DNA of 64,000 nucleotides. Source: Hallerella porci. Lineage in GTDB: Bacteria; Fibrobacterota; Fibrobacteria; Fibrobacterales; Fibrobacteraceae. Position 1 is the stretch's first letter. Each line of letters opens with the position of its first letter. Positions 45,650-50,528 of the stretch are shown here, piece by piece. Under the pieces are notes generated by a model. The model was given only the letters and a program-made list of their open reading frames with translations, had not been told where the DNA came from and ran no database searches. The stretch spans positions 1-64,000 of the forward strand of contig NZ_QGHD01000006.1 in assembly GCF_003148885.1 (NCBI RefSeq). The letters run 5' to 3'. The position numbers and the translations under genes were made by a program.

Positions 45650-46797
45650 TATTTCATAGTTAGAATCGCAGATTTTTCGCCAGCAATTCGAGTGTAAAAT
45701 AAAATCGCTTCGTTTTTGCCTTTGGGGGAGAGGCGTTTGATTTCGGCTTCGGGGACGATTTCTACACCGCGTTTTTTGAGTGTGATTTTTCCGATATCAA
45801 ATTCTTTGAGCAGTTTTTTGACTTTGCCGGTAGAAAGCGGAACGCTTCCTAGAACGCGGTAATTGTGAAAGGCGCTTGCGTCGAAAGGGGAATTACTTGT
45901 GACGTATGCGATGCCGTTTGAAATGAGATGTGCATCTGCGTTTTCTTTTTGGGCGATTTCCGCGAAGAGATGACTCCGGACGAGAACGGAAACGGGTTCG
46001 GCAAGAAATTGCGAAAGCGGTCCGATCGTAAGTTCTTTAGAGGAAGTTCCGACCCAACTTTTGGGGACGCTATTTTCGATGTAAACGGCTCGAGTTTTCC
46101 CCGGATTTTTTGTGAGTTCGCCGAAGAGAATCAAACATTCGCGACAATCATTTTTTGCACCGAGGTAAATAATTTCGCAGTCTGTGGGAAATTCGTTGGC
46201 GGGGTAACCGGGCGGAAGCTTTGCCATGCCGCCTTTGTAATCGCGGGCGATTTGAATGACTTCGGATAATGTCGGCGTTAACTCCGAAAAGTTGCGCTGA
46301 TTATCGCCGTCTTTTTGCCTACGAGCGGGATCGATGGTGAAAAATTCTCCGCGGGATTTTAACTCACGAATATCTTCGCAGAGCGCTTCGCGCGGGCTTC
46401 CGAGTGCGCGAGTGTTGAAACGATACATTTGAACGCGTTCTTCGGACAAATCAATTCCGCGGACAGAAAGATTCTTCGGTAAGAAAAAACTATCTCCGCC
46501 CATACCGCAGCAAAGATCGTCTACACTCGTTGCTTTTTCAAAAAGTTCTGCTTTGTAGCGTCCGATATCGGCAGCCGTCGATTGTTCTAATGCGAGTTTA
46601 TCGCAGGCGAGAATTGCATCGGTTTCAAATTTTTTTCGGTATTTCGGAACGAGTGCAATGTAATCCAAAATGGATCCGCGCAAATTTGCCCACGGACTTT
46701 TGGAAAGCATTTCGGCGAGTTTTAACACTTCGGTTTTCTTTTGAACCGCTTCGTTTACAAAGCGAATAAATTCCGCATCGTCAAACGGGAGAAACAT
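45646..46797 (-). CDS. Class I SAM-dependent methyltransferase with THUMP-like domain
   Basis: A 383-residue cytosolic protein. The SAM-binding motif is DDLCCGMGGDSFFLP (about 100-114) and motif II is RGIDLSEERVQMYRFN. FFTIDPARRQKDG, with a conserved DPARR, is typical of this rRNA/tRNA-methyltransferase-like family with a THUMP-like C-terminal domain. The nucleic-acid target is not known. The ATG at 46797 shares its A with the stop of the upstream rlmB gene, so the longer frame to 46902 is rejected. It is the last gene of the rnd-tat operon; four bases overlap the LolA-like gene tail to tail. Confidence 0.78.
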   Translation of the reverse strand: MFLPFDDAEFIRFVNEAVQKKTEVLKLAEMLSKSPWANLRGSILDYIALVPKYRKKFETDAILACDKLALEQSTAADIGRYKAELFEKATSVDDLCCGMGGDSFFLPKNLSVRGIDLSEERVQMYRFNTRALGSPREALCEDIRELKSRGEFFTIDPARRQKDGDNQRNFSELTPTLSEVIQIARDYKGGMAKLPPGYPANEFPTDCEIIYLGAKNDCRECLILFGELTKNPGKTRAVYIENSVPKSWVGTSSKELTIGPLSQFLAEPVSVLVRSHLFAEIAQKENADAHLISNGIAYVTSNSPFDASAFHNYRVLGSVPLSTGKVKKLLKEFDIGKITLKKRGVEIVPEAEIKRLSPKGKNEAILFYTRIAGEKSAILTMKY

Positions 46798-47771
46798 TAA
46801 AGTTTTTTCCGCGCGATTTCGTAAAGGCCGAGGGAAAGGGCGACAGATGCGTTGTAAGACTGCGCTTCTGCGTTCATCGGAATGCGGAGAACGTCGGTGC
46901 ATTGCTTCCGAATAAACGGCGGAAGGCCGACATCTTCTCCGCCGACGGCGAGGACGATTTGACTTCCGAACGCATAGTCCACGAGAGAAACATTTGTGTC
47001 GGCATCGAGCCCTAAAATTTGATAGCCGGCTTGTTTGAGTTCGCCGATGGTCTGCTCTAAATTATTCGGACGGCAAATGCGGAGTTTGTCAACGGCTCCG
47101 GTAGAAGCCCGCGTGACCGTTGGCGTAAGCCCGCACATTCCTTTCGACGGCATAAGAAAAATATCGGCACCGAGTCCGAGTGAAGAACGAATGCATGCGC
47201 CGAGATTTCTCGGGTCTTCAATGTTTGTTGCGATGACGACGAGCTTTGGCAAATTCTTTTCTTTTGCCGTGTAAAATTCTTCTTTGACATCGTCCCATTG
47301 CAGCAATTCTTTTTCGTTGCAAAGAGCGACGACGCCTTGATTCGGCACGGCGTAAGAATCCAAAATTCGCGCTTCAACTTGTTGCACGTGAATGCGATTT
47401 TTCTTGGCGATTTTTTGCAGCGCATACAGTTTTGGATTTCCCGAATTGTGACGGAAAAGAACGCGGTGCACTTTCATCGGCGAATTGTTCAAAAGTTCTG
47501 CGACTTCGCGGATGCCGCCGACAGCTGTCTGCGGGGCGCTTTCTTCGTCGCCCATCGCGATGTTAACTTGCGACGGACGTGGACGCGCTTCAAATTCGTT
47601 GTCACGGTCATCGCGGAAAGCGGGTCTTGTATCGCGGCTTTGACGGAATCCGCGGTCTTTACCGAAACGAGGAGAGCGACCGTAGCCAAAAGATTCCCGC
47701 GGCTTTTCAGAAAATGACGGTTCGTCATTTTGCGTTTCGCGGTTTGCATTAAACGGTTGCTTTTTCCACAT
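46797..47771 (-). CDS. 23S rRNA 2'-O-ribose methyltransferase-like (SpoU/TrmH family)
   Basis: A 324-residue SPOUT methyltransferase resembling RlmB. The first 65 residues are an Arg/Phe/Gly-rich disordered tail (SPRFGKDRGFRQSRD), likely RNA binding. VGGIREVAELL begins the substrate-binding domain; the SPOUT motifs are NIEDPRNLGACIRSS, VTRASTGAVDKL and NASVALSLGLYE at the end. The target nucleotide could be G2251 of 23S rRNA as in RlmB, or another; the N-tail is not in E. coli RlmB. It overlaps the upstream fusion gene by 23 bases. Confidence 0.85.
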   Translation of the reverse strand: MWKKQPFNANRETQNDEPSFSEKPRESFGYGRSPRFGKDRGFRQSRDTRPAFRDDRDNEFEARPRPSQVNIAMGDEESAPQTAVGGIREVAELLNNSPMKVHRVLFRHNSGNPKLYALQKIAKKNRIHVQQVEARILDSYAVPNQGVVALCNEKELLQWDDVKEEFYTAKEKNLPKLVVIATNIEDPRNLGACIRSSLGLGADIFLMPSKGMCGLTPTVTRASTGAVDKLRICRPNNLEQTIGELKQAGYQILGLDADTNVSLVDYAFGSQIVLAVGGEDVGLPPFIRKQCTDVLRIPMNAEAQSYNASVALSLGLYEIARKKL

Positions 47772-48453
47772 GAGGAGTCTCCTTTTCCGGATCGTTTTTG
47801 ACGGCTACAATATAGTTCATTGGAATGTCGTGTGGCATTAAAGGAATCGGATTTGTAGACACTTGAGCGCTGAAAGCGATTCCGCATTTTAATGTCTCGG
47901 GATGACGCGCAAGAAATCGGTCGTAGTAACCTTTGCCGTGTCCGTGACGTCCACCGTCCCAAGAAAATTGAACACCGGGAACGAGAGCAAAAGGAATTTT
48001 TCCCGAGTAAGCGGCGAGATTTTTTGCGGGCTCGTACACGTGAAAACGACCTTCCAAAAGTTCTGTTTTTAGATTGTGAATTTCGACAAATTCCATTTCG
48101 CCATCGGCAAATGTCCGCGGAAGAAGTAAGCGTCCTTCGCTTGCGAGCTCTTCTAAAAGCGGTAAAATATCGGGCTCATTTTGGAGCGGATAAAAGGCGG
48201 CAACTTTTTTCGCGGATTGATAAGGCGGAAAATTTTTCACCGCTTGCACAATCCAAGCGCTTTCTTTTTCGCGCATTTTTTCGGGAGAATTTTCTTCTAA
48301 AATCGCATCTTCCAAATCGAATTTCATCTTGAATAATTTTCCTTTGTAATGCTTGAATTTGGCGAAGGCTTTCCCCAAATTTTCGGGAGAAAAAAGGAGA
48401 AGCGCAAGCAAAAAAAGAAACGCATATTCGGCAAATCCAATTTCGGCGTTCAT
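47749..48453 (-). CDS. TatB-like / 5-formyltetrahydrofolate cyclo-ligase fusion
   Basis: One 234-residue frame. Residues 1-45 look like TatA/TatB: GFAEY, a hydrophobic helix (AFLFLLALLLF), then PENLGKAFAKFK as the amphipathic helix. From about 45, 5-formyltetrahydrofolate cyclo-ligase follows, ending with its signature PGVQFSWDGGRHGHGKGYYDRF (catalytic and ATP-binding loop; shown to about 165). The start at 48453 is well supported: it overlaps the tatC stop (ATGA) and follows CTGGAG. An internal ATG (Met43) could give a free cyclo-ligase. The enzyme makes 5,10-methenyl-THF; a membrane anchor on it, or a TatB supplied by it, is unusual. Confidence 0.8.
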   Translation of the reverse strand: MNAEIGFAEYAFLFLLALLLFSPENLGKAFAKFKHYKGKLFKMKFDLEDAILEENSPEKMREKESAWIVQAVKNFPPYQSAKKVAAFYPLQNEPDILPLLEELASEGRLLLPRTFADGEMEFVEIHNLKTELLEGRFHVYEPAKNLAAYSGKIPFALVPGVQFSWDGGRHGHGKGYYDRFLARHPETLKCGIAFSAQVSTNPIPLMPHDIPMNYIVAVKNDPEKETPHVEKATV

Positions 48454-49166
48454 CGTTTTCTCCAGGCGAGATGATAGGTGAGAAGGCTCAATAAATATAA
48501 AAGGGAAAGGGGAATTGCCATCCAAAAAAGCGAGAGCAAATCCGGCGGCGTAAAGAAAGCCGAAAGAAATGCGATGAGAAATAAAATCAATCGAAAATGC
48601 CGCAGAAGAAAACGGCGATCCGCGATTCCGGTTTGCGCAAAAAACGCTGCGGCGACAGGCAGTTGAAAAAGAATGGCGAAGAGAATTTCAAAACGGAAAA
48701 GGAAAGAAACGTAAGAAGTCTGCGACCAAAGTTGCGTAATCGATTCCGAATAATTTGCGAGGAAATGAAAGAGAAGAGGAATGGCAAAAAAATAGGCGAA
48801 CGCTCCGCCCGCAAAAAAAAGAATGCATGCGGCGAAAAATGCGAAAAGAAAAATGCGCCGATTATTTTGAACTGCGGGCGCACAGAACGCATAAAGATGA
48901 TAAAGAAAAATCGGCGAAGTCAAAAGAATTGCGATTAAACTCGCGACGAGAAGACTCACCGAAATTCCTTCGGCGGGAGAAAGATTGACGAGATTAACAG
49001 CCGAAGAATTTTTTAATGGCAGTAAAATAAATGGCCAAAAAAAATCAAATGCATAAAAAGCAAAAACGGCGACAATCGCAAAAGAAATCGTGCAAATGAA
49101 AAGGCGAGTGCGAAGTTCCTGAAGATGTTCAGAAATCGTCATCTCGCTTTTTTCAATTTTTTTCAT
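48450..49166 (-). CDS. tatC: Sec-independent protein translocase TatC
   Basis: A 238-residue inner-membrane protein with six helices, the receptor for twin-arginine signal peptides. The N-terminal ISEHLQELRTRL and the loop before helix 3 (LTSPIFLYHLYAFCAPAV, TatC's conserved P-x-x-x-x-x-x-F-x-x-P block) are clear, as is FRFEILFAILFQLPV. The ATG at 49166 lies inside the end of tatA, and a second ATG at 49142 is possible. The stop overlaps the TatB-like fusion gene by four bases. Confidence 0.92.
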   Translation of the reverse strand: MKKIEKSEMTISEHLQELRTRLFICTISFAIVAVFAFYAFDFFWPFILLPLKNSSAVNLVNLSPAEGISVSLLVASLIAILLTSPIFLYHLYAFCAPAVQNNRRIFLFAFFAACILFFAGGAFAYFFAIPLLFHFLANYSESITQLWSQTSYVSFLFRFEILFAILFQLPVAAAFFAQTGIADRRFLLRHFRLILFLIAFLSAFFTPPDLLSLFWMAIPLSLLYLLSLLTYHLAWRKR

Positions 49167-49386
49167 CGGAATTTTTCGCAGAAGAATCGCTTAAATTTTC
49201 TGCATTTTTGTTTGCCGAGTTTTCCGCTTTTTCGGAATCGAAAGAAGTCTTTTCGCCTTTTTCCGCTTTGCGAAATTCGCGGAGAGCTTTGCCGAGTGCC
49301 GCTCCGAGTTCGGGAATGCGACGTGCTCCGAGAAGAATGACGGCGAGTAAAATAAGCAATAAAATTTCGGGAATGCCAATTCTCAT
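49153..49386 (-). CDS. tatA: Sec-independent protein translocase TatA/E
   Basis: A 77-residue Tat component: a short N-terminus, one membrane helix (IPEILLLILLAVILLG), a hinge (ARRIPELG), the amphipathic helix (AALGKALREFRKAEKG) and a charged tail. It forms the pore or channel with TatC. Its ATG overlaps the rnd stop by four bases (ATGA), and tatC overlaps its end. The Tat operon here lies between an RNase and rRNA-modifying genes. Confidence 0.92.
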   Translation of the reverse strand: MRIGIPEILLLILLAVILLGARRIPELGAALGKALREFRKAEKGEKTSFDSEKAENSANKNAENLSDSSAKNSDEKN

Positions 49387-50528
49387 AAAATTTCCTCGGT
49401 AGCGGTTAATTTGGTATGAAGAATGCCGTTCCAAATCGAACGTTGCCAATGTAAAAAGTGAGCGGCTTCGTAGCGGTCATCCCAAGTGGAGCCTATCGGA
49501 GAAGCGAGTGCGATGAGCTGGGCGCGATTTGCGAGCATCGATTCGTCGAGATTCAATTCGGCTGCGCGTTCGTTGCGCCAAATTTTTAATGTGTCGATGA
49601 GTTCGCCATCGGGACTTGTGAGCGGAGGCGGTGCTTTGTGCTGCATTTCGGGCCATTCCGATTCGGGGATTTGCATCGCATTTTGAAGCATTTGCAAAAA
49701 GTCGCTGCGGCGTTCGCCCGTAAAATTCCGCGGTAATTTCGGGAGCGAATTTTCGCAGAGTTTTGGGAAAGAATAACTCGCCGAACGGACGATGGCAAGC
49801 ATTAACTCGGTACCAAAAACTTTATACGGCGGACGATCTAATTTTTCCGCTTCATTTTCGCGCCACAGCCAAACTTGTTTGAGAATATTCAACGCTTTCG
49901 GCGGAAGACGGAACGAACCCGAAACGCGCCATGGATCCACTTCTTCTTTGACTTGTGTTGCGCGGAGAATTAAATCGTTGCACGATTCAATCATCCATTG
50001 AAATTTTCCTTGCGCTTGCAGTTGCTCGCCGAGACGCGCGCACAGTTCGTGCAAAAAGAATGTATCGTGAATGGCGTATTCGCACATGTCCGGCGGAAGC
50101 GGCCGTGTTGTCCAATCGGATTTTTGATTGTCTTTGGGAAGCTCTACGCCGAAATATTTTTTGACAAGACTTGCGTAACCGAGACCTTCTTCGCCGAGAA
50201 ATTTTGCGGCGATCATCGTATCGAAAATGTGCTTCGGCGAAAATCGAAATGTGTGCCAAAGCATGCGCAAATCGTAATCCGCACCGTGGAAAATTAAAGT
50301 GTTCATCGCCTTCGTTTGAAAAATCGGGCGAATATCAATCGGTGCAAATGGATCGACAATGTAATGGTGTTCGCCGATTGTAATCTGAACTAAGCAGAGA
50401 CGCACATTGTAATGATACATCGAATCGGCTTCGGTATCGACCGCTGCCATTTCATAGTGCGAAAGATCCTCCAGCAGAGCGCTCAAGGTTTCTTCGTCTT
50501 CTACGAGAATATACGGATCGTTTACCAT
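49383..50528 (-). CDS. rnd: Ribonuclease D-like 3'-5' exonuclease
   Basis: A 381-residue protein with a DEDDy exonuclease domain (1-185): VDTEAD holds the first Asp and Glu, FHGADYDLRML the second Asp, and YAIHDTFFLHEL the Tyr-x3-Asp of the last motif. The HRDC domain (about 195-280) binds RNA. Typical RNase D has about 375 residues. It trims tRNA 3' ends and leads the operon of overlapping genes through tatA, tatC, the fusion gene, rlmB and the methyltransferase. Symbol is by family. Confidence 0.9.
   Translation of the reverse strand: MVNDPYILVEDEETLSALLEDLSHYEMAAVDTEADSMYHYNVRLCLVQITIGEHHYIVDPFAPIDIRPIFQTKAMNTLIFHGADYDLRMLWHTFRFSPKHIFDTMIAAKFLGEEGLGYASLVKKYFGVELPKDNQKSDWTTRPLPPDMCEYAIHDTFFLHELCARLGEQLQAQGKFQWMIESCNDLILRATQVKEEVDPWRVSGSFRLPPKALNILKQVWLWRENEAEKLDRPPYKVFGTELMLAIVRSASYSFPKLCENSLPKLPRNFTGERRSDFLQMLQNAMQIPESEWPEMQHKAPPPLTSPDGELIDTLKIWRNERAAELNLDESMLANRAQLIALASPIGSTWDDRYEAAHFLHWQRSIWNGILHTKLTATEEIL

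Follow-up and report, generated by a model that had tools for sequence, protein, structure and literature searches.

In the 64,000-nucleotide window of the Hallerella porci genome analysed here (contig NZ_QGHD01000006.1, positions 1 to 64,000), a single uninterrupted minus-strand frame of 234 residues joins a TatB-type membrane segment to 5-formyltetrahydrofolate cyclo-ligase (MTHFS; Table 1). The gene order is rnd–tatA–tatC–fusion–spoU. The ATG of the fusion, at position 48453, overlaps the tatC stop codon as ATGA and is preceded, about 10 bases upstream, by a GGAG stretch that is conserved in the genus; at the other end, where the stop codon ends at 47749, the gene overlaps that of a SpoU-type methylase. 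An earlier note on this DNA had reported the single frame and the overlap of its start with the tatC stop, and both were found again directly in the sequence; its coordinates are correct, and the strand, which it did not give, is the minus strand. Pfam agrees with its naming of the neighbours as tatA and tatC, so that the TatB half is genetically linked to both, and the order rnd-tatA-tatC-tatB::MTHFS-spoU is readable in family f1. The author of the note knew of no description of such a fusion. The open-access literature likewise yields nothing on a TatB-MTHFS fusion, on Tat in Fibrobacter or on natural TatB fusions, an absence that is weak evidence, and two publications on the Fibrobacter envelope leave Tat and MTHFS unmentioned in the main text.

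Table 1 Features of the tat locus and of the fusion protein (window coordinates)
Feature	Position	Strand	Basis or remark
rnd-like 3'-5' exonuclease with HRDC, first in the conserved cluster	49383..50528	minus	Pfam; conserved order
tatA, 77 aa, ATG start	49153..49386	minus	PF02416 E 2.5e-15; TatA-type by profile
tatC, 238 aa	48450..49166	minus	Pfam TatC E 2e-48
tatB::MTHFS fusion gene	47749..48453	minus	234 aa from ATG; coordinates include the stop codon
TatB-type transmembrane helix, residues 7-20	48394..48435	minus	AlphaFold2 model helix; profile alignment covers residues 3-32 of solved E. coli TatB
Glu9, counterpart of Glu8 in E. coli TatB (polar cluster formed with TatC)	48427..48429	minus	Invariant; aligned to TatB Glu8
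Amphipathic helix, residues 23-53; second half predicted to double as first MTHFS-fold helix	48295..48387	minus	AlphaFold2 model
Met43, internal start proposed in the earlier note	48325..48327	minus	Not conserved
MTHFS (5-formyltetrahydrofolate cyclo-ligase) fold, residues 35-234	47752..48351	minus	VIA-align; PF01812, TIGR02727
GHGKGYYDRF motif, residues 171-180	47914..47943	minus	Aligned to human MTHFS 147-156; glycines and Asp invariant
SpoU-type RNA 2'-O-methyltransferase, overlapping fusion 3' end	46797..47771	minus	Pfam; conserved order

The TatB-type front half and its TatC partner

Residues 1-54 comprise a TatB-type helix and, behind it, an amphipathic helix; the AlphaFold2 model places one of each there, at moderate local confidence (pLDDT about 68-86 per block). 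The N-terminus of the window protein itself has no Pfam match, and its NCBIfam scores are weak and under the cut-off (for the front 60 residues alone, TatA is best at 5e-4 and tatB follows at 0.02), so relatives are needed to assign the front half. Compared with solved structures, a profile of fusions from the whole phylum (A2) matched TatB chains with E values from 4.6e-9 (2mi2) to 5.4e-8 and TatA chains with values from 1e-5 to 6e-3. The profile of the window clade alone (A6, 10 N-termini) had TatB in all three top positions (E 9.6e-5 to 1.3e-3) and TatA only at 0.15, and it aligned the GFSE of the fusion with the GFSE of TatB. In the reverse control, the profile of tatA from the same operons ranked TatA first (E 6.7e-17). 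In addition, TIGR01410 (tatB) is matched by 13 of 15 fusion members, and the Pfam TatA_B_E cut-off is passed inside the MTHFS frame in four genomes of distant families (G052, 29.2 bits; G054, 25.6; G056, 22.7; G039, 21.9). Comparison of the front residues with TatA/B profiles, the check proposed in the earlier note, thus gives TatB with the clade and the phylum profiles, the window sequence alone staying under the cut-off.

Glu9 is invariant in the phylum-wide alignments (14 and 15 rows) and, in alignment A1, is the sole invariant residue of the front half. Its E. coli counterpart, Glu8, ties TatB to TatC (PMC5201420), and nearly all TatB proteins have it (PMC5777986). The Pfam TatA_B_E model, run over the genome, finds no separate TatB, only two tatA. 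The preference of the profiles for TatB over TatA, the invariant glutamate and the lack of a separate TatB by Pfam all support the suggestion of the earlier note that the fusion is the source of TatB. TatA and TatB have been found to function with the anchor, the amphipathic helix and just a few residues beyond them, their tail being dispensable (PMC13186574), from which we infer that an added C-terminal domain is plausible. The front half resembles TatB (PF02416, TIGR01410) in its short N-terminal transmembrane helix, GFSE-type motif, conserved glutamate, hinge proline, amphipathic helix and location in a tatA/tatC operon. Unlike TatB, it stands in an operon of the order tatA-tatC-tatB, carries a folded folate enzyme where TatB has a free hydrophilic tail and, in the window, scores under the family cut-offs.

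Of the two TatC residues of the polar cluster, T208 and Q215 in E. coli numbering, the TatC of the window keeps the equivalent of the first and has Leu at that of the second. The Gln215 position is occupied by Leu or Met in all 11 operons of the window clade (fused family f1, L003-L013) but by Gln in all 31 others read, and the clade that lost this glutamine is the one that lost the linker between the two halves of the fusion (see below). Close relatives offer few recognisable Tat signals, a point against the reading preferred below: twin-arginine signals (TIGR01409, at E 0.1) were not found in G001-G004. Nor were they found in G009 and G018, and this Tat operon is present in all of these genomes. 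A second Tat locus, with tatA and tatC both of a different type and no TatB seen, lies at positions 73500-81000 of contig C10 of G000 (L175); it includes two genes with twin-arginine signals (a DUF362 protein and an aldo/keto reductase), with a multi-4Fe-4S protein nearby. A locus of this type is also present in G005, and it represents the usual Tat type in the genus coded g2.

The enzyme half and a predicted shared helix

Residues 55-216 match TIGR02727 (MTHFS_bact) with an E value of 5e-33 (114.5 bits against a cut-off of 84.9), and the Pfam family 5-FTHF_cyc-lig (PF01812) is matched with 1.7e-29 (103.5 bits, cut-off 27). Comparison of the AlphaFold2 model of the fusion (mean pLDDT 87) by VIA-align yields Z 22.7-24.3 with human and B. 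anthracis MTHFS (22.8 with human 3hy3 and 24.3 with 2jcb), followed by unrelated structures, all below 10. Glu93 (the human substrate residue Glu61) and residues 171-178 (GxGKGYYD) align with human MTHFS, and the key positions are invariant across the fusions. The protein thus shares with MTHFS (TIGR02727, PF01812; 1sou, 2jcb, 3hy3) the whole fold and the GxGKGYYD motif, with scores above the family cut-offs; it differs in being anchored to the membrane by TatB, in a first helix that seems to be shared in this clade and in a Glu at the Arg14 position.

The first residue of human MTHFS falls on residue 64 in the model of L119, a fusion from family f10, and on residue 35 in the window model. This offset of 29 residues fits a gap in alignment A1, which together suggest that a linker was deleted in the window clade and that a helix is shared: the clade is predicted, from models and alignment, to have lost about 29 residues, such that the TatB amphipathic helix runs on as the first MTHFS helix. 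In alignment A1, however, the shared-helix stretch lines up with the TatB part of fusions from other families, such as that of G051. Where the earlier note spoke of a complete cyclo-ligase, family and fold hold and completeness does not quite, the usual first helix being either shorter or continuous with the amphipathic helix of TatB. The structural offset puts Lys44 at the position of human Lys10 and Glu48 at that of human Arg14, an assignment that comes from an alignment-guided model and for which the window model is not independent because alignment A4 already placed both sites together. In human MTHFS, Lys10 and Arg14 take part in ATP binding. Lys44 and Glu48 are invariant within the window clade; the Arg (Arg77 of L119; human Arg14 by position) is invariant among the remaining MTHFS of alignment A5, fused and free alike.

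The replacement of this arginine by Glu48, along with the shortened first helix, is what would be expected if the TatB half worked and the MTHFS half of the window clade were no longer an enzyme but a folate- or nucleotide-binding regulatory domain. We consider this quite unlikely given that the window protein retains Lys44, Glu93, Arg169 and the GxGKGYYD motif, that the domain is under purifying selection and that the genome has no other MTHFS, a search for a second one having returned the single match only. Among six species, pN/pS amounts to 0.02-0.33 for residues 2-54 and 0.09-0.34 for residues 65-220, values used only for comparison between the halves because synonymous sites are near saturation in the wider pairs; by this measure, the two halves are under similar purifying selection.

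The earlier note also considered a free enzyme produced by translation from Met43. An AAAGGA stretch does precede this codon in the window, but among 11 close relatives the codon is ATG only in G000 and G005, with Leu or Phe in the rest, and a start there would remove part of a helix that belongs to the MTHFS fold in the model. The internal start is therefore unsupported, and two products, the TatB-MTHFS fusion plus free MTHFS made from Met43 or released by proteolysis, are very improbable.

Distribution and history of the join

Each of the six species of the genus has a full-length homologue, as have two further genera (g5 and g10); the five other species and both genera all have the fused form, which disposes of the concern, raised in the earlier note, that close relatives might carry separate genes. 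Searching 168 genomes of the phylum with the 14-row profile A1, supplemented by the search for full-length homologues, as the note had proposed for Fibrobacterota, showed at least 45 genomes in which the frame runs uninterrupted across the join; they belong to 25 of 41 genera and to 11 of 14 families. The named carriers include Chitinispirillaceae, Chitinivibrionales and Candidatus Raymondbacteria; these names, along with the Fibrobacter-labelled metagenome-assembled genomes and the bog and fen Fibrobacteres among the named loci, identify the phylum as Fibrobacterota. The TatB-MTHFS join is a genuine observation, far beyond chance, because the same in-frame join recurs phylum-wide. Such conservation rules out a lost stop or an artefact, and with the start and overlap conserved and the join recurring in 11 families, an assembly error or any other local accident is next to impossible.

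A search with profile A2 covered 432 genomes from two other phyla, 296 from the phylum reached via a Flavobacterium locus and 136 from that reached via a Hydrogenothermaceae locus, and no fused frame was found among the matches listed. The outgroup MTHFS matches among those listed mostly start near the MTHFS boundary. Several that start early were rejected as fusions: four (G179, G278, G366 and G598) run through stop codons, and one (G299) starts past the transmembrane helix. A scan of genome contigs limited to two peptide patterns gave MTHFS matches spanning the N-terminus solely in Fibrobacterota, and among viral contigs, no match extends to the TatB part. In one genome (G047, contig C54, 24650-25432), the fusion frame is broken by a single TAG just behind the MTHFS GKGKGF motif, either through a sequencing error or in a pseudogene.

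Several lineages have a different arrangement. The 80 genomes of genus g2, taken to be Fibrobacter proper, contain rnd-MTHFS-spoU at the same spot, and tatA and tatC are absent there. In these genomes, MTHFS (L151-L170, L014, L022) has a hydrophobic N-terminal helix and a basic stretch, without the TatB Glu; the 19-residue hydropathy of this anchor is 1.9-2.7 in every species read. TatC was found elsewhere in the genome in 52 of the 80 and was not found in near-complete genomes that include G033, G133, G135, G100, G103, G097, G156 and G158, representing eight species, all of which still have the MTHFS anchor. The Tat-less genera g3, g4 and g8 encode MTHFS without an anchor at the same locus. 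In genus g6, an rnd-like exonuclease with HRDC is joined to MTHFS in one protein of about 585 residues (L027, 229-1983; L029; L030; L031); an rnd-MTHFS join, a second and different fusion of MTHFS at the same locus, was also seen in g9 (L189). Candidate split tatB genes, with frames of 64-146 aa and weak TatB matches, are located behind tatC in some genomes of g6 and in part of family f10. Their operon position is like that of the fusion, but MTHFS in these lineages is separate elsewhere or, in g6, joined to the rnd-like exonuclease. In G037 of family f2, MTHFS makes up the N-terminus of a frame of 790-815 aa (L184, 3-1430, minus strand), the rest of which, as far as read, matches nothing in Pfam.

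In a tree of the MTHFS core, fused forms are distributed throughout the phylum and unfused forms fall in separate places, with seven changes between fused and unfused states, a count obtained by a quick method on a tree with many weak branches. One early fusion followed by several losses is the simplest reading, although not proof, and the fused form is probably the ancestral state, as far as the sequences indicate.

The anchors of Fibrobacter also bear on whether the TatB half might be a mere membrane anchor, the selected trait being membrane-bound MTHFS, with Tat docking incidental or lost in the window clade. The hydrophobic helix kept without the TatB Glu, even in the eight species in which TatC was not found, and the loss of TatC Gln215 in the window clade would fit such a history. 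Outside Fibrobacter, however, the fusions have an invariant Glu and stay directly behind tatC, and the anchor-free enzyme of the Tat-less genera g3, g4 and g8 indicates that anchoring is not needed everywhere. On this evidence, a mere anchor is unlikely.

A probable TatB with an enzyme for a tail

We conclude that the fusion is probably a bifunctional TatB that carries MTHFS as its cytoplasmic tail. Residues 1-54 would be a working TatB: a single short transmembrane helix, oriented N-out/C-in, would bear the Glu9 that docks on TatC and would lead into the amphipathic helix. The dispensable cytoplasmic tail of TatB would be replaced by the MTHFS domain at the inner membrane face, where it would convert 5-formyl-THF to 5,10-methenyl-THF. 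The join may have arisen once, in frame, in the ancestor of Fibrobacterota, from a tatA-tatC-tatB-MTHFS gene run, and would then have been passed on by descent and dismantled on several occasions as tat genes were lost or moved. We infer that the intact fusion functions within the TatBC receptor, with an active enzyme and no cleavage of the product; either half could be altered in the window clade, considering the loss of TatC Gln215 and the Glu48 at the Arg14 position.

The cause of the persistence of the fusion is less certain. It might reflect a ratchet, in which neither half can be spared and splitting them would call for a new start and ribosome site, or else a genuine coupling. That Fibrobacter without Tat kept the anchor speaks for some benefit of placement at the membrane, and the anchor-free MTHFS elsewhere argues against a general need for anchoring. 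Functional coupling is a tentative possibility: a folate enzyme at the Tat receptor might tune or sense export, or export sites might place one-carbon metabolism at the membrane, in which case the anchoring of Fibrobacter MTHFS would have outlived its Tat function.

The role of TatB is known from a few model systems, in which the tail is a disposable charged stretch. In much of the phylum, every TatB of the Tat receptor appears to bear a folded enzyme, and an enzyme-bearing TatB limits models of TatBC packing at the cytoplasmic face. The fusion links protein export and folate metabolism, two processes without a known connection. With its fused, split, anchor-only, enzyme-only and re-fused lineages, the phylum offers natural comparisons, and since Fibrobacter is a culturable rumen cellulose degrader, membrane-anchored MTHFS is directly testable.
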